Positions 27,778 through 43,705 of a stretch of 64,000 nucleotides of DNA are shown here, piece after piece; position 1 is the first letter of the stretch; the number at the start of each line of letters is the position of its first letter. A program made the translations under genes and the position numbers. The stretch is from NCBI GenBank assembly GCA_021154885.1, contig JAJKHS010000107.1, forward strand, positions 19,429 to 83,428, given 5' to 3'. The notes beneath the pieces are model-generated. The model saw only the letters and a program-made list of their open reading frames with translations, had not been told where the DNA came from and did not search any database. The stretch comes from Thermoanaerobaculum sp. (lineage in GTDB: Bacteria; Acidobacteriota; Thermoanaerobaculia; Multivoradales; UBA5704).

Positions 27778-27854
27778 GCAGCCATAGCTCAACTGGATAG
27801 AGCGACAGACTACGGATCTGTAGGTTGGGGGTTCGACTCCTCCTGGCTGCACCA
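27778..27854 (+). tRNA. tRNA-Arg (ACG)
   Basis: Full cloverleaf: acceptor GCAGCCA pairs with TGGCTGC, D-arm GCTC/GAGC, anticodon stem ACAGA/TCTGT with loop CTACGGA (anticodon ACG, read as ICG for CGN), TTCGACT T-loop, discriminator A and an encoded CCA. TACAAT at 27748-27753 is a likely -10. The 3' half is the integration target of the adjacent mobile element. Confidence 0.95.
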
Positions 27855-27863
27855 CTTAACCCC
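27806..27863. repeat. attL: 58-bp direct repeat in tRNA-Arg 3' end
   Basis: It runs from CAGACTACGG in the anticodon arm through the CCA end to TTAACCCC. It is identical over 58 bases to 34691-34748. The tRNA gene stays complete because the left copy retains the natural 5' half. Confidence 0.93.
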
Positions 27864-32558: not shown

Positions 32559-33279
32559 GGTCTTTCCAATGGCGCCAAGCGCGCCGAATCGCTTGCTTAG
32601 TAGCGCCTGTCTGAACCGCTATATGATCTACTGCCTGTTCGATGTCTTGGCCATCTCTTGTCTGAATCAAGACCCATTCAGCGAGCAACAGGCCCTTATT
32701 ACCATGGTACTGATCTCTCCATTCCCAGGCTCGGGCAACAGTGCTCTCAGAGACTCCCTCTGATTTCGCCACATCGGCAACCGCATCCTGAAATGTCTTC
32801 CCGCTTTCCATTGCGGCCTTGACGGGAACATGGAGCAGAGCGGCCTCAAGGTGAAATACGTCCAGCGAGCGAAGTCGCTTCCCAGGCTTAGGCTTAAGGT
32901 TGAGTGCCTCGTTAGCATCGCCGATTAATTCAGCGGTTTTCTCTTCAACCTTTTTGGCGTGAGCCAGCAAATCGCGGAGCACAGCCATGGTGTCATTAAC
33001 CGGAGGGGGCTGGACGGCCCTTTGCTCCTTCGCGTCTTCGCGTAGAAAGCGCTGTAGAGGCTCTGACTTTGTAATCTTGCGGAATGCGTCCAGCAAGTAA
33101 AGCCGCAACGGTTCGGGGAACGGCGTGCCCTTTTGCAGGCAGTATATTGCTTGATTGAGCAATAAGATGGCGCCGCTTAAGTCCCCGCCGCGCGCTCTCT
33201 CAACGAAGCTATTAAATATGGAATTGTTGGGGTCGGTACCGTCTGCCGATATTATGGAACTTGACCGCCTAAGCATCAT
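32509..33279 (-). CDS. Island protein with HTH, coupled to the integrase
   Basis: A 256-residue protein less GC-rich than its surroundings. The N-terminal segment ARGGDLSGAILLLNQAIYC through EPLRLYLLDAFRKIT resembles a helical module common in proteins of integrative elements. Near the C-terminus VADVAKSEGVSESTVARAWEW looks like a helix-turn-helix. Its ATG overlaps the integrase stop, implying translational coupling. Possibly a directionality or replication factor. Confidence 0.65.
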   Translation of the reverse strand: MMLRRSSSIISADGTDPNNSIFNSFVERARGGDLSGAILLLNQAIYCLQKGTPFPEPLRLYLLDAFRKITKSEPLQRFLREDAKEQRAVQPPPVNDTMAVLRDLLAHAKKVEEKTAELIGDANEALNLKPKPGKRLRSLDVFHLEAALLHVPVKAAMESGKTFQDAVADVAKSEGVSESTVARAWEWRDQYHGNKGLLLAEWVLIQTRDGQDIEQAVDHIAVQTGATKQAIRRAWRHWKDRLTGSEKPGLNGSVSE

Positions 33280-34499
33280 CCGATCCTCACCACGTTGGAC
33301 CGCTCCTCACCCGCAAGAGCGCCGTCCACGAGATCGCCGAGCAGAATCACAGCCTGCCGCTTCTCCGCGTCGTATCCCGCGCGGTTGTAGGTGCGGGAGA
33401 TTCGGCCCGTGGCATGGTTCAGGAGCTGGTCAATGGTATCGGGCCGGACACCGGAGCGGCCTAGCCACGTCGCCGCCGTTCTCCGGAGATCGTGTGGTGT
33501 GAAGTGTTCCAAGCCGGACCACTCCCGCAGACGGGCCGCGCTGTGGGACAGCCACGTCAGCCGCTTGCCATCGGCGCGGGAAGCGAGCACCCATCCGGTA
33601 GACTCCGTAAGGGGGCGGAGCGCTTCGATGATCGCGAGGGCTTGCGGCGACAACGGCACGCGGTGCGCGCGGTTGGTTTTCGTCAGCTCGGCCGGAAGAT
33701 TCCACCACCACCCGCGGGAGTCGCGTTCAAGGTCGCACCAGCGCATAGAGAGCACCTCTCCGGGCCGTTGCGCCGTCAACACGATCAGGCGCCACGCGGC
33801 GGCGACGGCCGGCTGTAGGCGATCGAACAGGGACCATAGAGCCTGGATCTCATCCTCTGACAGCACCCTTTCGCGGGGCTTCTCAGCATGGAGCCGCTTG
33901 AAGCCGTGTACGGGATTCGTTTCGACGCGTTCTTTCTCCATTCCAAAGCTGAAGACCCTGGACACCAGGGCTCGGGTGCGGTTGGCGCAAACGCCTCCCC
34001 GTTCCCTTGCGATCCTTTCGAGCAGCTCCCGGACATCCGTCCGGCGGATCTCTGCGGCCGGCCGGGAACCCCACACGGGCAGCACTTCAACCCGTAGTTT
34101 CCGCTCGTCTTCCTTCCACGCGCGGAGCCGCTTGTTCCGCTTCGCGTGCTCTTCCAGGTAGAAGGCGGAGAGGGCTTCAAACGTCTCGCTTCTGGCTTTC
34201 CTGCGGGCGACACGTTCGGCCTTCCGCTCGGCCATCGGGTCGCGGTCGTGGATCTTGACGCCCGCGAGAAGCTCCCGGGCCTTGTCGCGTGCCTTTGCCA
34301 GGCTGAGGGCCGGGTACTCCCCGAAGGTGATTCGTCGCCGGCCAGCCCGCGGGCCGTAGCGCAGAAACCAGAATTTGCGACCGCTCGGCAGGACGCGGAG
34401 CCCGAGCCCCGGGACGGCACTGTCCACGAGCTCGAAACGGGTCCCTTTGCTCTCGGTGCGGATCTGAAGATCGGAGAGGGAAGCAGATGAACGCCTCAT
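33276..34499 (-). CDS. int: Tyrosine site-specific integrase (P4-type)
   Basis: A 407-residue integrase from ATG 34499 (GGAGG nine bases upstream; the frame runs on to 34682 but without support). The N-terminal DUF4102-type arm-binding region includes PGLGLRVLPSGRKFW and FGEYPALSLAKARDKA. The catalytic domain keeps Arg in TAQRPGEV, a Lys in ELTKTNRAHRVPL, HDLRRTAATWL, the His of LLNHATG and the nucleophile Tyr in TYNRAGY. It lies 190 bases from attR and would integrate the element into the tRNA-Arg 3' end. Confidence 0.95.
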   Translation of the reverse strand: MRRSSASLSDLQIRTESKGTRFELVDSAVPGLGLRVLPSGRKFWFLRYGPRAGRRRITFGEYPALSLAKARDKARELLAGVKIHDRDPMAERKAERVARRKARSETFEALSAFYLEEHAKRNKRLRAWKEDERKLRVEVLPVWGSRPAAEIRRTDVRELLERIARERGGVCANRTRALVSRVFSFGMEKERVETNPVHGFKRLHAEKPRERVLSEDEIQALWSLFDRLQPAVAAAWRLIVLTAQRPGEVLSMRWCDLERDSRGWWWNLPAELTKTNRAHRVPLSPQALAIIEALRPLTESTGWVLASRADGKRLTWLSHSAARLREWSGLEHFTPHDLRRTAATWLGRSGVRPDTIDQLLNHATGRISRTYNRAGYDAEKRQAVILLGDLVDGALAGEERSNVVRIG

Positions 34500-34552
34500 G
34501 GTCGGGTGCCTCCGGTTTGACGGGTGGGCCTCAAGGCCCGCGCTGGGGAGCC

Positions 34553-34580
34553 GTGGACCACTGGTGGACCACTGGTGCGC
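34553..34580. repeat. 28-bp near-terminal repeat of the island (right)
   Basis: Exact copy of 27922-27949, in the 5' region of the integrase gene. A weaker third version (GACCACTGGGGTGACCACTG) is at 34811-34840 outside attR. Confidence 0.75.
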
Positions 34581-34690
34581 GCGCTTGCATGGGTCGGCAT
34601 GATGCCGTATGATACAGGCAATGTCGGTCAAAGTCCATGCTTGCAGTGCTTTACCGGGACAAGGCGAGAAGCTATGAAACACACCTGCGG

Positions 34691-34748
34691 CAGACTACGG
34701 ATCTGTAGGTTGGGGGTTCGACTCCTCCTGGCTGCACCACTTAACCCC
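34691..34748. repeat. attR: 58-bp direct repeat
   Basis: Identical to 27806-27863 (3' part of tRNA-Arg plus TTAACCCC). It marks the right end of the integrated element. Confidence 0.93.
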
Positions 34749-36952: not shown

Positions 36953-37372
36953 TTGTCGATCTGTCTTGCTCCGGGAGGCATCTTGGCAGCAGTGGCGAAG
37001 AGGCTGTTTATCTCCTATGCCTGGGAGAGTGAAGAGTACTGTCTATGGGTACGGCGGCTCGCCGCTCGTTTCCGCGAGGATGGCGTCGACGCCCGTCTCG
37101 ACCACTGGCACCTGAAGGGAACCGACAACATCCCGGAGTTCATGAGCCGCGAGGTGCGCCTAGCGGATTGGGTCCTGGTGCTCTGTTCGCCTGCCTACCA
37201 GAGCAAGGTGCGCGCGGCCGAGGAAGGACAGCCCGTGAGCGGCGTGGGCTGGGAGACGCGGCTGCTGACCGGCCGCATGCTTGGCAGATCCCAGAACAAG
37301 ACTCTGGCTGCGCTCGCTCGCGGCTCCTGGGCCGAATCCTCGCCCGATTTCCTGGCTGGGCAGCTCTACTAG
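36953..37372 (+). CDS. SEFIR/TIR-domain protein, N-terminal part
   Basis: 139 residues ending at an in-frame TAG. It starts at a TTG; TTG 36983 or GTG 36992 behind GGGAGG are alternatives. The SEFIR/TIR fold is clear: RLFISYAWESEEYCLW, ARFREDGVDARLDHWHL, ADWVLVLCSPAYQSK and GVGWETRLLTGRML. In bacteria these domains occur in immune sensors and in effector enzymes. The same frame continues after the TAG with DLSNQSTFGRVYRELLQRITG, the usual end of a SEFIR domain, so the stop interrupts one gene. The convergent neighbours are two GTPases and two tiny helical proteins. Confidence 0.75.
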   Translation: MSICLAPGGILAAVAKRLFISYAWESEEYCLWVRRLAARFREDGVDARLDHWHLKGTDNIPEFMSREVRLADWVLVLCSPAYQSKVRAAEEGQPVSGVGWETRLLTGRMLGRSQNKTLAALARGSWAESSPDFLAGQLY

Positions 37373-38035
37373 GACCTTTCAAACCAGAGCACCTTCGGCC
37401 GGGTCTACCGGGAGCTGCTGCAGCGCATAACGGGGACACAAGAGACCGCTCCGCCTCTGGGCAAGCTGCCCGCCGACCTTCGGGAGATGACGACGGCCAA
37501 GGGACTTGACCTGAGCAAGCCGGCGAACGCCACGCATCCGCTGGACCGGGAGCGAATCTTTACCGCGATATCCGCCGCCATCGGTGGTACGTTCGTGGTC
37601 TCTGTGGCGGTGCCCTCCGCTCTGCTCCGCGCCGGACGCAAGCGGCCCGAGATCGCCTACCAGGCCTTGTGCAGCCTGTTCCTCGTCCCCTTGGTGGAGC
37701 TCCACAAGAAGCTCGAGATGCAGGAGGTGCATCTTCGGTTGGTGGGCGTCGGGAGCTGCACGCCCAAGTTGGCGGCGCTGGCCCGGGCCGCGCTGCGCGA
37801 AGGCTATCCCAAGAAGAGCGGGTCCACCGTCGAGGTCATCGAGGATGGCCAGCCTGAGCTGGCCATCCTCGGCAAGATGGCGCGTTACCTCGCCTGGGCC
37901 GTGGAGCGACTCTACTGGCGGCTCTCGGCGTGGTTTCCAGGTAGTGCCAGGCGTCCTCTTCGTCAGGCGAAGAGCGACTTGAGCCATTGCCAGAAGGACT
38001 GCAGCATGGGCCGGATCTTCTGGAAGATCGCGTAG
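37373..38035 (+). pseudogene. C-terminal part of the SEFIR gene, after an amber codon
   Basis: In frame with the SEFIR ORF, open for 220 codons. It first completes the SEFIR domain (DLSNQSTFGRVYRELL), then gives an unrecognised domain with HPLDRERIFTAISAAIGG, YQALCSLFLVPLVELH and LRLVGVGSCTPKLAALA, and a Trp/aromatic-rich segment YLAWAVERLYWRLSAW. An internal start (for example ATG 37487) might allow separate expression. Its last 73 bases overlap the convergent 64-residue protein gene. I could not assign the C-terminal domain. Confidence 0.55.
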
Positions 38036-38157
38036 GCCACGTTCCGCAGCCATTCGGCCAGGGCTTCGAGAGATGCCAGCACGATCCGCCGTACGCGGTC
38101 GTCCAACTCGTCCAGCATCTGGATGACGAGCTCTTTTTCCACTTCACTCAGTGCCAT
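37963..38157 (-). CDS. 64-residue helical protein, copy 2
   Basis: Starts MALSEVEKEL with AGGAG nine bases upstream. It is wholly alpha-helical by pattern: an acidic helix (VIQMLDELDDRVRRI), a central helix (LASLEALAEWL) and an amphipathic aromatic C-terminus ending FWQWLKSLFA. It aligns without gaps with the preceding 64-residue protein at 24 of 64 positions. It has no signal peptide. Last gene of the GTPase operon; its 3' end overlaps the SEFIR gene convergently. A membrane-active effector or a GTPase adaptor is possible. Confidence 0.65.
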   Translation of the reverse strand: MALSEVEKELVIQMLDELDDRVRRIVLASLEALAEWLRNVAYAIFQKIRPMLQSFWQWLKSLFA

Positions 38158-38167
38158 CTTCGTTCTC

Positions 38168-38362
38168 CTAGGCAAATGCCTCGCAGAGCCAGCCCCAGAA
38201 CCGGCTCAGTTGTTCTTTGACCTTGACGTAGACTGTATAGAGAGTGCTGCTCAGCCAACTGGTGAAGGCCTCGAAGGAAGAGAGGATGTTCTGCCGTTTC
38301 TGGCCATCCAGGCGATCCAGCAGGTCGATCACTTTTGCGCGTTCGGCATTGGTCATCGGCAT
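38168..38362 (-). CDS. 64-residue helical protein, copy 1
   Basis: Starts MPMTNAERAK with GGGAGG seven bases upstream. Same three-helix plan as its neighbour: KVIDLLDRLDGQKRQNIL, SSFEAFTSWL and an ending FWGWLCEAFA. The conserved Glu-Ala-x-x-x-Trp-Leu and Phe-Trp-x-Trp-Leu patches are shared. It lies 14 bases after the permuted GTPase gene and ten before copy 2, so all are one transcript. Confidence 0.65.
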   Translation of the reverse strand: MPMTNAERAKVIDLLDRLDGQKRQNILSSFEAFTSWLSSTLYTVYVKVKEQLSRFWGWLCEAFA

Positions 38363-38376
38363 GATGCACCCTCCCG

Positions 38377-39219
38377 TTACCGCTGCGGAACGGGCGCATC
38401 TTCGAGCCAGTCCCGCAGCTTGAGAATGATTTCCTGGTCATCCGCGAAGTCACGGGAGTCGGCCTGCACGACGAGAAGGACGAGGTCGCAGGAGGGGATC
38501 AGGTCCCGGTAAATCTTCTCGTACTCCTCGTCCTCCCGGAGGGTCCGGCCATAGCCGGGCAGGTCGACCACGGTGAGAGTGCCGCCGCTTTCGAGCTCGA
38601 ACTCCTTGGCCTGCGCCTGGGTGGTGCCGACCAGGGTATGGCTGGTCCGCCATTGCGCGTTGAAGAGGTTGTTGATCGTGGTCGTCTTGCCGACTCCCGC
38701 CTTACCGAGGATCGCCACCTTGGGAGGCTGGCGCATCTCCCGTTTCCACTCCGACGTCAGGTCGTCCATTTCTTCCGGGGAGAGGATCTTCTTGATCTCC
38801 TCAAAGAGCTTTTCCCGCATCTGCTGCCCGTTTCCCCTGCCGTTGCCCTCCCCCCGGCGCACTCGCTCCTCGCGGACGAACTCCTGGACCTCGGCATGGG
38901 CCAGCCCGAAGGGATCGGCCGGCTGGACCTGGTCCAACTTGAACCCCGCGTGAGCGTGCCCGATCACCTTGCTGAGCAGGGGCAGGAGCCGGTAGCGCCG
39001 CAGCGCGGAGTAGTATTCGATGTGCTCGGGAGAGATGTCTGCGAAATCCGACAGCTTGTGGACGATGTCCTGGGTGCGGCGCCGGATCTCCTTCTCCGCC
39101 GCTTTCGTGGGAGCGTTCAACCTTTCGTCCCATCCTCCAGGACACATCTTATCGACCTGGTTCAGGCCAACCACCATGCGGAGCCGCTTCTTGCGCTTCC
39201 CGCGGAAAAACGGGATCAT
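38377..39219 (-). CDS. GTPase with permuted motif order (G4-G5-G1-G3)
   Basis: A 280-residue P-loop GTPase. The first motif met is G4 (GLNQVDKM, Asn 20), then a G5-like YYSAL near 69-73, a charged linker (RRGEGNGRGNG), and only then G1 (GKAGVGKTTT, residues 172-181) and G3 (DLPGYG, Asp 219). The protein ends at WLEDAPVPQR, where the strand before G4 would normally start, so N- and C-termini fall at one natural cut. Either a true circular permutation or a fusion of two broken GTPases. Its ATG overlaps the stop of the ordinary GTPase gene (ATGA), implying coupling. Confidence 0.8.
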   Translation of the reverse strand: MIPFFRGKRKKRLRMVVGLNQVDKMCPGGWDERLNAPTKAAEKEIRRRTQDIVHKLSDFADISPEHIEYYSALRRYRLLPLLSKVIGHAHAGFKLDQVQPADPFGLAHAEVQEFVREERVRRGEGNGRGNGQQMREKLFEEIKKILSPEEMDDLTSEWKREMRQPPKVAILGKAGVGKTTTINNLFNAQWRTSHTLVGTTQAQAKEFELESGGTLTVVDLPGYGRTLREDEEYEKIYRDLIPSCDLVLLVVQADSRDFADDQEIILKLRDWLEDAPVPQR

Positions 39220-39875
39220 CGTTCAACCCCCTTTAGAATGGCAATTTTTAGTTTCTCAAGTCCCCAACCGTAGCGCGCCGTGTACGGCACGACGTGGGAC
39301 CTGTCGAAGGGCACCGCTTCCCCGAGGATTTCCTTGAATACGCCGTAGACGTCCGAAATCTTCTCGGGAAGGACGGCGAGCTGTGCTGCCGAGGGCCTGC
39401 GCAACGCCGTGTTGAAGGATTCGTCCCCCTCGTCGACTCCCAGGTCGTCCACCCGGTTCAGTGCCACGATCAATTGGAGACCCGGCCGAAGCAGGGGAAG
39501 GAGCTTCATCAGGTAGAGTTGATCGCGTTTGTAGGCCCGGGTGTCCGCCTGGGTCACCCAGACGAGCGAGTCCGCCTGCGGGACCCACTTCTCGTAGTAG
39601 GGCTGGTAGAGATCTTCGGCCCGGAGGCTTTCGGCGATGCCGGGCATGTCGACCACCCGGACGGGCTCGTCCGGAAGACCCGAATCTTCATCCGGATCGA
39701 GAAGGGTGACCTGCGGCTTGGAGGTGCAGGCCACCGCGGGATCGGTCGCCAGGGCGAGGCCGAAGAGAGCGTTGAGAGTGGAGCTCTTGCCGGCGCCTGT
39801 CTTGCCGAAGAAGACCACCGTGAGCATCTGCTCGGGTCGGATCTCTGCTCGGATCGATGCAACGGGTTCCGCCAA
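39216..39875 (-). CDS. P-loop GTPase (Era/HSR1-like)
   Basis: A 219-residue single-domain GTPase with motifs in normal order: G1 GKTGAGKSS (residues 24-32), G3 DMPG (Asp 76), G4 LNRVDD (Asn 140) and a G5-like YTARYGWG near the C-terminus. First gene of a four-gene leftward operon with the permuted GTPase and two 64-residue proteins. GTPases of this kind recur in bacterial conflict systems as switches that control effectors such as TIR/SEFIR or pore-forming proteins; here that role is inferred from context. Confidence 0.88.
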   Translation of the reverse strand: MAEPVASIRAEIRPEQMLTVVFFGKTGAGKSSTLNALFGLALATDPAVACTSKPQVTLLDPDEDSGLPDEPVRVVDMPGIAESLRAEDLYQPYYEKWVPQADSLVWVTQADTRAYKRDQLYLMKLLPLLRPGLQLIVALNRVDDLGVDEGDESFNTALRRPSAAQLAVLPEKISDVYGVFKEILGEAVPFDRSHVVPYTARYGWGLEKLKIAILKGVER

Positions 39876-40068: not shown

Positions 40069-42372
40069 ATGCGCACCTCGACTCGCACCCTGATCGGCAT
40101 CGCCGGATTCGCTTTAACGCTGCTCGCGACCGCTCCGGTGAGGGGCGACGAGGTGCCACCTGTCGGCCCGCCGTTGGTGGTGCCGCGGGCGGCCGGCAGG
40201 ATCGTCGTCGACGGCAGGCTCGACGATGCCGCCTGGCAGCAGGCGGCCGTCCTCGACACCTTCTATGAGACCTACCCGGCCGACAACACCGAGCCGAAGG
40301 CGAAGACGGTGGTCTACCTGACCTACGACGAGCACGATTTCTACGTCGGCATCCACGCCTTCGACCCGGAGCCCGGGAAGATCCGCGCGCCCTTCGTCGA
40401 ACGCGACAAGATCATCGGTACCGACGACAACGTCGCCGTCTTCCTCGACACCCGCAACGACCGCCGCTCGGCGGTCGAGCTGCGCGTCAACCCCCGCGGC
40501 AACCAGACGGACGCGGTCTACAACGACAGCAGCGGCAACGAGGACCTGTCCCCCGACTTTTTCTACGACACCGCGGCGCAGCTCACCGCCGACGGCTGGA
40601 CCGCCGAGATGCGGATTCCCCTGTCCTCGCTGCGCTACCCCAAGCAGGCGGAGAATCACTGGGGCATCCTGGTCTGGCGCAACTACCCGCGCGATCAACG
40701 CTACGCCTTCCACAGCAGCCCCATCGCCCGTGGCAGCAACTGCTGGATCTGCCAGTCGCGCGAGCTCACCGGCCTGACCGGGCTGCCCGGCGGCGGCCAT
40801 TTCGTGGGGGCGCCCTACGTCACCGGTCAGCGCCTCGGCGTGCCCAGGAACGGGCTCGGCTCGACCCTTGAGGACCGGAGCCCCAAGGCCGACGCCGGCC
40901 TCGACGTCAAGTGGACGCCGAGCGCGAGCAACGCCCTTGACCTCACCATCAACCCCGACTTTTCGCAGGTGGAGTCCGACGTCGGCCAGATCGCGGTCAA
41001 CAACCAGTTCGCCATCTTCTTTCCTGAGAAGCGCCCCTTCTTTCTCGAGGGGCTTGACCTCTTCGATACCCCGATTCAGGCGGTCTACACCCGCACCATC
41101 ACCGACCCCAAGTGGGGTCTCCGTGATACCGGCAAGCTCGGCGACTCCTCCTACACTCTGCTGGTCACCCAGGACCAGGGCGGCGGCAGCGTCATCATCC
41201 CGGGTCCCACCGGCAACGGCTTCGCGCCGCAGGACTTCTCGTCCAAGGTCCTGGCCGGCAGTTTGCGACGGGACCTCGGCGCCTCCTATCTCGGCCTGCT
41301 CGTCACCGACCGCGAGAACGACGGCGGCGGCCATCAGGTCGCCGGCCATCAGATCGCCGGTCATAACCGCGTCGCCGGCCCCGACTTCCTCTGGCGGCAG
41401 AGCGAGGCCGATCAGGTGACGGGACAACTGCTGGTGAGCGACACCCAGACCCCCAACCGTCCCGACCTCTTTCCCACCTGGGACGGCCGCCAGCTCACCT
41501 CCCACGCCGGCCACCTGGAGTGGCTCCACACCGGTCGCGACTGGACCTGGCGGGCCACGGTGCAGGATTTCGGCGAGGACTTCCGCGCCGACGAGGGGTT
41601 CGTGCCGCAGGTCGGCTTCCGCGCCGGCCGCTACGCTCTTTTCCGCAACTACTATCCGCAGAGCGGCCTGTTCCGGCGCGTCCAGCCGTACGCCGTCGTG
41701 CGCTACATCGAGAGCCCCGACGGCGAGCTCATCCGGCGCCAGACCAATCCGGGCATCCAGATCCAGGGGCAGCACAACATGGCGACCGGCGTCGAGGTCG
41801 CGGTGCGCGAGCGGCTGCGGGTCGGCAATCAGGTCCTCGAGCGCAGCAACGTCAACGGCTACTTCCAGATCGATCCGGGCCGCCGCTTCTCCCGCGTCGG
41901 CGGCAACTTTACCCTGGGAGATTCGATCGACTTCGCCAACGGCCGGGTCGGCCAGGGGGGCGACCTCTCCCTCTTCGGCACGCTCAAACCCACCGACCAC
42001 TTGGCGCTCGACTTCAACGCCGACCGTCAGTGGCTCGACGTCAACGCCGGCGGCTCCGGCGGGCGATTGAAGGGGCGTCTCTTCACCGCCCAGATCGAGC
42101 GCCTGAAGGCCACCTACAACTTCAGCGCCCGCGCCTTCCTGCGGTTGATCGGCGAGTACCTCGACGTCAACAGCGACCCGCGTCTCTACACCTTCCCCGT
42201 GCCCGCCAGGAGCGGCTCGTTCGCGGGCTCGGCCCTCTTCGCCTACCAGCTCAACTGGCAGACGGTGCTCTTCGTGGGCTACGCCGACGACCGGCTCCAG
42301 AACCCCCTCGGCGTCCTGCAGCGAGCGGATCGGCTGGTGTTCGTGAAGGTCTCCTACGCGTTCCAGCGGTGA
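40069..42372 (+). CDS. DUF5916 outer-membrane-type protein with CBM9-like domain
   Basis: A 767-residue exported protein. A signal peptide (LIGIAGFALTLLATAPVRG) is followed by a carbohydrate-binding-9-like beta domain (RIVVDGRLDDAAWQQA, DNVAVFLDTRNDRRSA, residues about 40-230) and a long DUF5916 region with NPDFSQVESDVGQI and FFPEKRPFFLEGLDLF, ending as an apparent beta-barrel (final Phe-Gln-Arg). No Shine-Dalgarno; TATAAC is five bases before ATG. Fragments of a second copy of its C-terminal part lie downstream at 42.8-43.7 kb. Confidence 0.93.
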   Translation: MRTSTRTLIGIAGFALTLLATAPVRGDEVPPVGPPLVVPRAAGRIVVDGRLDDAAWQQAAVLDTFYETYPADNTEPKAKTVVYLTYDEHDFYVGIHAFDPEPGKIRAPFVERDKIIGTDDNVAVFLDTRNDRRSAVELRVNPRGNQTDAVYNDSSGNEDLSPDFFYDTAAQLTADGWTAEMRIPLSSLRYPKQAENHWGILVWRNYPRDQRYAFHSSPIARGSNCWICQSRELTGLTGLPGGGHFVGAPYVTGQRLGVPRNGLGSTLEDRSPKADAGLDVKWTPSASNALDLTINPDFSQVESDVGQIAVNNQFAIFFPEKRPFFLEGLDLFDTPIQAVYTRTITDPKWGLRDTGKLGDSSYTLLVTQDQGGGSVIIPGPTGNGFAPQDFSSKVLAGSLRRDLGASYLGLLVTDRENDGGGHQVAGHQIAGHNRVAGPDFLWRQSEADQVTGQLLVSDTQTPNRPDLFPTWDGRQLTSHAGHLEWLHTGRDWTWRATVQDFGEDFRADEGFVPQVGFRAGRYALFRNYYPQSGLFRRVQPYAVVRYIESPDGELIRRQTNPGIQIQGQHNMATGVEVAVRERLRVGNQVLERSNVNGYFQIDPGRRFSRVGGNFTLGDSIDFANGRVGQGGDLSLFGTLKPTDHLALDFNADRQWLDVNAGGSGGRLKGRLFTAQIERLKATYNFSARAFLRLIGEYLDVNSDPRLYTFPVPARSGSFAGSALFAYQLNWQTVLFVGYADDRLQNPLGVLQRADRLVFVKVSYAFQR

Positions 42373-42794: not shown

Positions 42795-43041
42795 GGCGCT
42801 CGACTTCAACACCGACCGCCAGTGGCTCGACGTCAACGTCGGCGGCCGCCGGCAGAGGATCGCGGGGGCGTCTCTTCACCGCCCAGATCGAGCGCCTACC
42901 GCTGCCGGGAATCTGGCGCGGATCGCCGGGCTTGTCGAGGAGAGCTTCGCCTCGGCCGCAGCCCGAGGGAGCCTGGGCTTATGGGCTGAAATGGCCCGCG
43001 GTCTGCGTGCAGAGATTTACAAGGTCCTAAATTCGGAGTAA
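42795..43041 (+). pseudogene. DUF5916 fragment plus an unassigned coding remnant
   Basis: 42795-42897 repeats DNA from about 42004-42110 of the DUF5916 gene (it encodes LDFNTDRQWLDVNVGG in one frame and ends GRLFTAQIERL in another). It then joins an unrelated open stretch, AAGNLARIAGLVEESFASAA to GLRAEIYKVLNSE with stop at 43039-43041, which looks like the end of a small antitoxin-like protein. No start codons or intact genes. Confidence 0.5.
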
Positions 43042-43438: not shown

Positions 43439-43487
43439 TCTACCTCCGGGCATCGCCCGCCGCGTCAAGTCGCTCGCGAAGTCGAGC

Positions 43488-43705
43488 CAGATCGATCCGG
43501 GCCGCCGTTTCTCCCGCGTCGGCGGCAACTTCACCTTAGAGGTTGTCTCGAAAGCGCTGATTTCCGCCTGACCGTCCCGGGCGCCATCGGAGCCGCTGAC
43601 GTCACCTCTTGAGACACCCTCTTAGGGATTCGATCGGCTTCGCCAACGGCCGGGTCGGCCAGGGGGGCGACCTCGCCCTCTTCGGCACTTTCAAGCCCAC
43701 CGGCC
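43488..43705 (+). pseudogene. DUF5916 C-terminal fragments split by a MITE
   Basis: 43488-43535 matches 41868-41915 of the DUF5916 gene (QIDPGRRFSRVGGNFT) and 43626-43705 matches about 41919-41996 (SIGFANGRVGQGGDLALFG). They are contiguous in the intact gene but separated here by an 82-base insert with a duplicated TTAG. The order relative to the fragment at 42795 is reversed, so the second copy has been scrambled. Confidence 0.75.
43536..43625. mobile_element. IS5-type MITE, about 82 bp, with TTAG target duplication
   Basis: TTAG at 43536-43539 and 43622-43625 flank an 82-base insert whose ends are GAGGTTGTCTC at the left and, in complement, GAGGGTGTCTCAAGAGG at the right. The 4-base YTAR target and GTGTCTC-type terminal inverted repeats fit the IS5 group. 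No coding capacity; it interrupts the DUF5916 duplicate. Confidence 0.7.

Follow-up and report, generated by a model that had tools for sequence, protein, structure and literature searches.

In a 64,000-nucleotide stretch of DNA from Thermoanaerobaculum sp. (contig JAJKHS010000107.1, positions 19,429 to 83,428; the whole stretch is called the window below), we found an intact operon of four leftward genes, whose open reading frames (ORFs) span positions 37963–39875 of the window and code for two GTPases and two small proteins. Comparison with related loci indicated that this four-gene operon is real and conserved and that the circular permutation of its second GTPase is genuine. The permutation is the most solid novelty of the module. 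We tentatively read the module as a taken-apart dynamin, in which a pair of G domains would put small helices on the membrane and would arrest or kill an infected cell, and we give this reading a probability of about 0.4.

GTPase 1 (39216–39875, minus strand) has 219 residues, a TTG start and the ordinary motif order, with all the G motifs searched for. GTPase 2 (38377–39219, minus strand) has 280 residues and a circularly permuted G domain in the order G4-G5-linker-G1-G3. They are followed on the same strand by small protein A (38168–38362) and small protein B (37963–38157), each of 64 residues. The junctions, in operon order, are an overlap of 4 bases and gaps of 14 and 10 bases, and every start is preceded by a G-rich stretch resembling a ribosome-binding site. 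The motifs G1, G3, G4 and G5 were found in both GTPases by a pattern search that did not include G2. A sequence-only reading of this DNA had described the same leftward operon, with a permuted second GTPase and two paralogous small proteins. The ORFs and all three junctions were found again, the motif order and the swapped alignment segments given below bear out the permutation, and the two small proteins are 38% identical to each other.

The motifs of the window GTPase 2 are GLNQVD for G4 (residue 18), YYSA for G5 (69), GKAGVGKT for G1 (172) and DLPGYG for G3 (219). Besides the window, nine related loci (L003–L010 and L017, of which L006 and L017 are visible in part) carry this permuted form. 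Six loci have the ordinary order, five of them within an operon of the same type; the GTPase 2 of L011–L014 is ordinary in motif order, and that of L015, also ordinary, is divided between two ORFs. BLAST aligned residues 135–275 of the window protein with residues 12–149 of the ordinary proteins of L011–L014 (40–44% identity, E ≤ 5e-33; 135–277 with 12–151 for L014), and residues 14–118 with residues 156–260 of the same proteins (45–48% identity, E ≤ 3e-27; 14–124 with 156–267 for L013). The break thus falls at 149/156 of the canonical chain, where G4 is at 160. The swap was likewise seen with L016 and with a protein of a Gloeocapsa plasmid, at 30–38% identity. In Anabaena sp. UHCC 0204 (L015, 7275–8067), GTPase 2 lies in two overlapping ORFs, which indicates either a broken gene or a sequencing error.

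When the halves were re-ordered, the eight permuted rows formed one clade in the GTPase 2 tree (support 100/99), and the GTPase 1 tree divided in the same way (100/100). Since both outgroups have the ordinary order, this order is suggested to be ancestral; the rooting is weak, since the outgroup branches are 2.9 changes per column long and the tree tool gave a long-branch warning. An AlphaFold2 model of GTPase 2 had a predicted local distance difference test (pLDDT) score of 80.3 and a predicted template modelling (pTM) score of 0.78, the five models spanning pLDDT values of 60.3–80.3. In this model G3 is followed by a helix (227–243), a strand (246–252) and a helix (259–274), and by this helix-strand-helix the chain would open before the G4 strand.

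The YRG (YawG/YlqF) GTPases have the motif order G4-G5-G1-G2-G3, with which the order of G4, G5, G1 and G3 in GTPase 2 agrees. According to PMC2430557, strand 3 is not connected to helix 2 in YRG, strand 2 is not connected to strand 3 in cpRAS, and YRG was the sole permuted group of an earlier survey. By these published descriptions, a cut before the G4 strand would be a third kind. It was not described among the matches listed in the literature on permuted GTPases. The present GTPase 2 differs further from YRG in having an unpermuted sister in the same operon type, and it stayed below the curated models of that group (YlqF, 18.1 of 208.2 bits; YqeH, 16 of 297.4; RsgA_GTPase, 16.5 of 30). PMC2430557 also relates an old claim that the G domain allows a single circular permutation, to which that paper added a second in 2008; a third cut site, if true, bears on this claim. 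Since unpermuted sisters share the gene setting, the effect of permutation on pairing and hydrolysis would be measurable between natural homologues. Planktothricoides sp. SR001 carries a permuted operon (L005) and an unpermuted one (L013) in one genome, which, if true, would be a natural record of the G domain before and after its permutation.

A total of 339 homologues of GTPase 2 were found. Among the best 120 of these, the first was the protein itself and the other 119, from several phyla, had 58–66% identity over 95–100% of the length. The named holders among the matches listed included cyanobacteria, such as Planktothrix, Microcystis and Trichodesmium, as well as Beggiatoa sp. PS, Candidatus Moduliflexus flocculans and a Bacteroidia metagenome-assembled genome (MAG). 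A scan of genome contigs gave 195 relatives and retained 80 loci, of which 15 (L003–L017) were used, 13 of them cyanobacterial (11 genomes), one from Thiomargarita and one from a Chloroflexota MAG. At 13 of the 14 loci whose upstream flank can be seen (that of L006 is truncated), GTPase 2 is immediately preceded by GTPase 1, and one to three homologues of the 64-residue proteins, small protein A included, lie downstream at 13 of the 14 where the downstream flank is visible (L017 is cut). The exception in both counts is L016, where a single ordinary GTPase is accompanied by an ORF of 63 residues without a match to the small-protein profile (E 0.93). With 13 further loci carrying the gene set, its arrangement is more than chance. 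The sequence-only reading had proposed a search for co-occurrence across distant taxa, and such recurrence was found for the GTPases with the small paralogues. It had also known of no named system with its exact set, in line with PADLOC and the literature listed, where no named system carries these GTPases and small proteins together. The module is rare near its host, as GTPase 2 was found in one of 59 relatives and one of 396 genomes of the phylum, both times in the genome of the window itself. A profile of the permuted form, which ordinary forms may escape, matched two of 386 genomes sampled around the one that holds L007, this one included.

The small proteins are rich in Trp, have net charges of −6 to +6 and are each predicted to be a single helix. 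Their alignment (29 sequences, 27 from the loci and two from the window) has one invariant Trp. At three Oscillatoriales-type loci, the small gene in third place has 54–57% identity to small protein B, which groups with these genes (support 98/98), a grouping to which a long-branch warning of the tool applies. At L011, GTPase 2 ends in a fused small-protein helix (71% over 21 columns). The operons of the window and of the loci read consist of GTPases and small proteins, plus an extra domain at L012 and L013. At L013 (8097–8681) a small protein is fused to this domain of about 110 residues, which has no Pfam match, and at L012 (8131–8589) a similar sequence is a separate gene within the operon. 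GTPase 1 of L007, L009 and L010 has about 25 additional N-terminal residues, hydrophobic and basic, with one Trp; the small proteins of these three loci are without the Trp-rich C-terminus.

Profiles of membrane- or filament-type G domains (AIG1, Dynamin_N and LeoA) rank among the best profile matches of the GTPases. The window GTPase 1 matched MMR_HSR1 (5.2e-10) and exceeded the Pfam cut-off for Dynamin_N. For AIG1 (cut-off 27 bits), the window GTPase 2 (30.3) and that of L011 (52.6) were above the cut-off and the window GTPase 1 (25.4) was below it. IIGP, the Pfam model of immunity-related GTPases (IRG), gave 13.4 bits for the window GTPase 2 and 23.7 for that of L011, both under the cut-off of 24. 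The G domain of the PADLOC LeoA model matched the GTPase 2 of L011 at 1.7e-15.

At all 12 cyanobacterial loci whose upstream side is visible, the operon is accompanied by a divergent gene with an N-terminal helix-turn-helix (HTH), an NB-ARC domain or both. Ten of the twelve have the HTH, and these ten supplied the HTH profile. At L013 the HTH is present (E 2.8e-10) with a different C-terminus, and L015 has an NB-ARC ORF without HTH. NB-ARC was scored at five loci; L003, L007, L011 and L015 passed, while L013 failed. Toxin-antitoxin-like genes are among the neighbours at several loci. In cyanobacteria, this is a GTPase-centred module not described before, neighboured by a gene of STAND type.

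These features could be joined as follows. The G domains of GTPase 1 and GTPase 2 would pair, as their fixed adjacency, the like division of both trees and the behaviour of other GTPases suggest; septin-, AIG1-, IRG- and dynamin-type GTPases are known to dimerise. At their lengths, neither GTPase has room for a dynamin stalk. Once triggered, the pair would set the small proteins, as predicted amphipathic helices, onto the cell membrane, an action to which the Trp-rich C-terminal helices and the one natural fusion of a helix to GTPase 2 point. The cyanobacterial trigger may be the divergent HTH/NB-ARC protein, and the likely outcome would be arrest or death of the infected cell, the presumed purpose being directed against invaders. 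We infer a defence role from family resemblance and from the neighbourhood. The fuller version, an immune machine made of a disassembled dynamin with a third-kind permutation, detachable amphipathic mini-proteins that would replace stalk and membrane paddle, and NOD-like arming by NB-ARC in cyanobacteria, appears rather doubtful.

Several results weigh against the taken-apart dynamin. The model of the small proteins has a low pTM (0.40). In an amphipathicity test, in which the best 18-residue stretch was compared with shuffled sequences at a threshold of 95%, no more than 12 of the 29 small proteins exceeded 95% of the shuffles. Small protein B of the window passed (20 of 500 shuffles reached its value), small protein A failed (30 of 500), and so did all seven small proteins of L007–L010. 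FeoB_N was above its Pfam cut-off too, and in the PDB searches HflX, EngA and EngB scored equal to or above the membrane-type GTPases. The HTH profile found no match in the window, L004 or L016; since the neighbour was not found in the window, the module there would be triggered otherwise or be partly orphaned.

The same gene anatomy would also fit a device of membrane or envelope maintenance, an accessory trait for dynamin- or GIMAP-like remodelling or stress repair that has no role against invaders, and PADLOC identified no defence gene within the operon. The module was seen here mostly in filamentous or colonial bacteria. We consider this explanation unlikely, because the rarity and patchiness of the module, and its cyanobacterial NB-ARC neighbour, suit a conflict module better than housekeeping. 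Even less probable is a GTPase pair directed at the ribosome or at translation, in which the small proteins would bind ribosome or RNA as partners and growth would be arrested under stress. HflX and EngA/EngB do stand at the top of the structure and PDB sequence lists, and some homologues of GTPase 2 are named '50S ribosome-binding GTPase' in the databases, a name that echoes that of a general Pfam family. But no NCBIfam ribosomal equivalog model was reached at its cut-off (the best, YsxC, gave 35.7 against 124.45 bits), and the small proteins, Trp-rich and of the charges given above, are not strongly basic, as RNA-binding proteins often are.

The last explanation concerns a neighbour. The sequence-only reading had placed a convergent SEFIR/TIR gene beside the operon and had cast its protein as adaptor or effector. 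A convergent rightward frame (36953–38035, plus strand) is indeed present and matches Pfam TIR_2 (7.5e-14) and SEFIR (8.6e-9); the PADLOC bSEFIR profile gave 8.8e-36 on the SEFIR domain and a weak 0.0043, over the first 50 residues, on the piece behind the stop. As a gene it does not hold. A TAG lies at 37370–37372, behind which the same frame is open to 38035. With the part behind the TAG as query, 10 relatives were found, nine of full length (400–458 residues), so that intact copies exist, mostly in metagenomes. All nine keep a block of 93–124 residues that is absent from the window gene, and the tail in which they end is not matched in the window, where the 3′ end differs. The TAG and the missing block, seen against these relatives, indicate a broken gene, and a SEFIR-family profile found no match at the 15 loci of the GTPase operon (best E 0.69). 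The role of adaptor or effector is accordingly not supported; from these comparisons the SEFIR gene is probably a bystander and not part of the module, and a past link to the GTPase operon is unsupported. We regard it as very improbable that the SEFIR protein acts together with the GTPases and the small proteins, its gene having decayed lately or being marred by an assembly error. The tight convergent layout would favour such a joint system. So would the 360-codon frame, which is otherwise open and lacks the block in frame; this speaks against decay, so that the decay would be recent or the TAG possibly an assembly error. The family is itself rare (one of 148 genomes of the class, that of the window), and could thus have arrived jointly with the operon. 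Among the relatives of this family, P0122–P0125, P0127, P0129 and P0131 have a SEFIR-type N-terminus ahead of the C-terminal region, and P0126 and P0128 have another TIR-type N-terminus there, which looks like a domain swap.

The operon may also be compared with the closest known systems. The DO-GTPase/GAP1 systems, as described in PMC7159879, likewise combine TRAFAC GTPases, often in the form of two paralogues, with partners that are helical and effectors that vary, and their conflict role is inferred, as it is here. By the same paper, GTPase-centric conflict systems are nearly absent from cyanobacteria, whereas most loci of the present module are cyanobacterial. Those GTPases conserve a Walker B glutamate; here the motifs are VVDMPG and VVDLPG, without a G3 glutamate in any aligned row, and one GTPase partner is permuted. 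No GAP1 gene was found in the operons of the window or the related loci read, nor any GAP1 name in the scans with our Pfam copy, which presumably includes GAP1 models. Eleos, the LeoA-LeoBC bacterial dynamins (PMC4159319), also has paired GTPases, and the G domain of LeoA resembles the GTPase 2 of L011, but the match is confined to LeoA residues of about 29–177 of 559. Eleos proteins have about 560–600 residues with a helical stalk, whereas those found here have 219 and 280 residues and no stalk, the helices being in separate small genes. From AIG1/GIMAP and immunity-related GTPases the present ones differ in permutation and shorter length, and ribosomal GTPases match them equally. The likeness to bSEFIR is the neighbouring SEFIR domain, which is broken here and had no counterpart at the other loci. 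For each of DO-GTPase/GAP1, Eleos and YRG, at least one defining feature is absent here, and the module is filed as a variant of GTPase-centred conflict-type modules.

The surroundings of the operon agree with the sequence-only reading, which had noted an integrated element 2.2 kb away and toxin-antitoxin debris. A 58-bp exact direct repeat (27806–27863 and 34691–34748), which covers the 3′ part of a tRNA-Arg (acg), marks both ends of the element, which is about 7 kb long and contains a tyrosine-type integrase ORF (33276–34682). It stops at 34748, 2.2 kb ahead of the SEFIR frame and operon and outside them. Between 35242 and 36934 there are an HTH_3 gene, PIN-domain toxin-like and FitA-like antitoxin genes, and a winged-helix regulator (HTH_34), which is a piece that seems to run on in another frame. 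Two genomes of the same genus begin to match the window by blastn at 40151 and 40164, within the gene next to the operon, and to the left of these positions no match was found, over 6.7 kb in one genome and 0.7 kb in the other. Horizontal arrival of the operon is likely. Pieces resembling the 3′ end of a DUF5916 gene lie downstream of that gene, at 42795–42897, 43487–43535 and 43633–43702.

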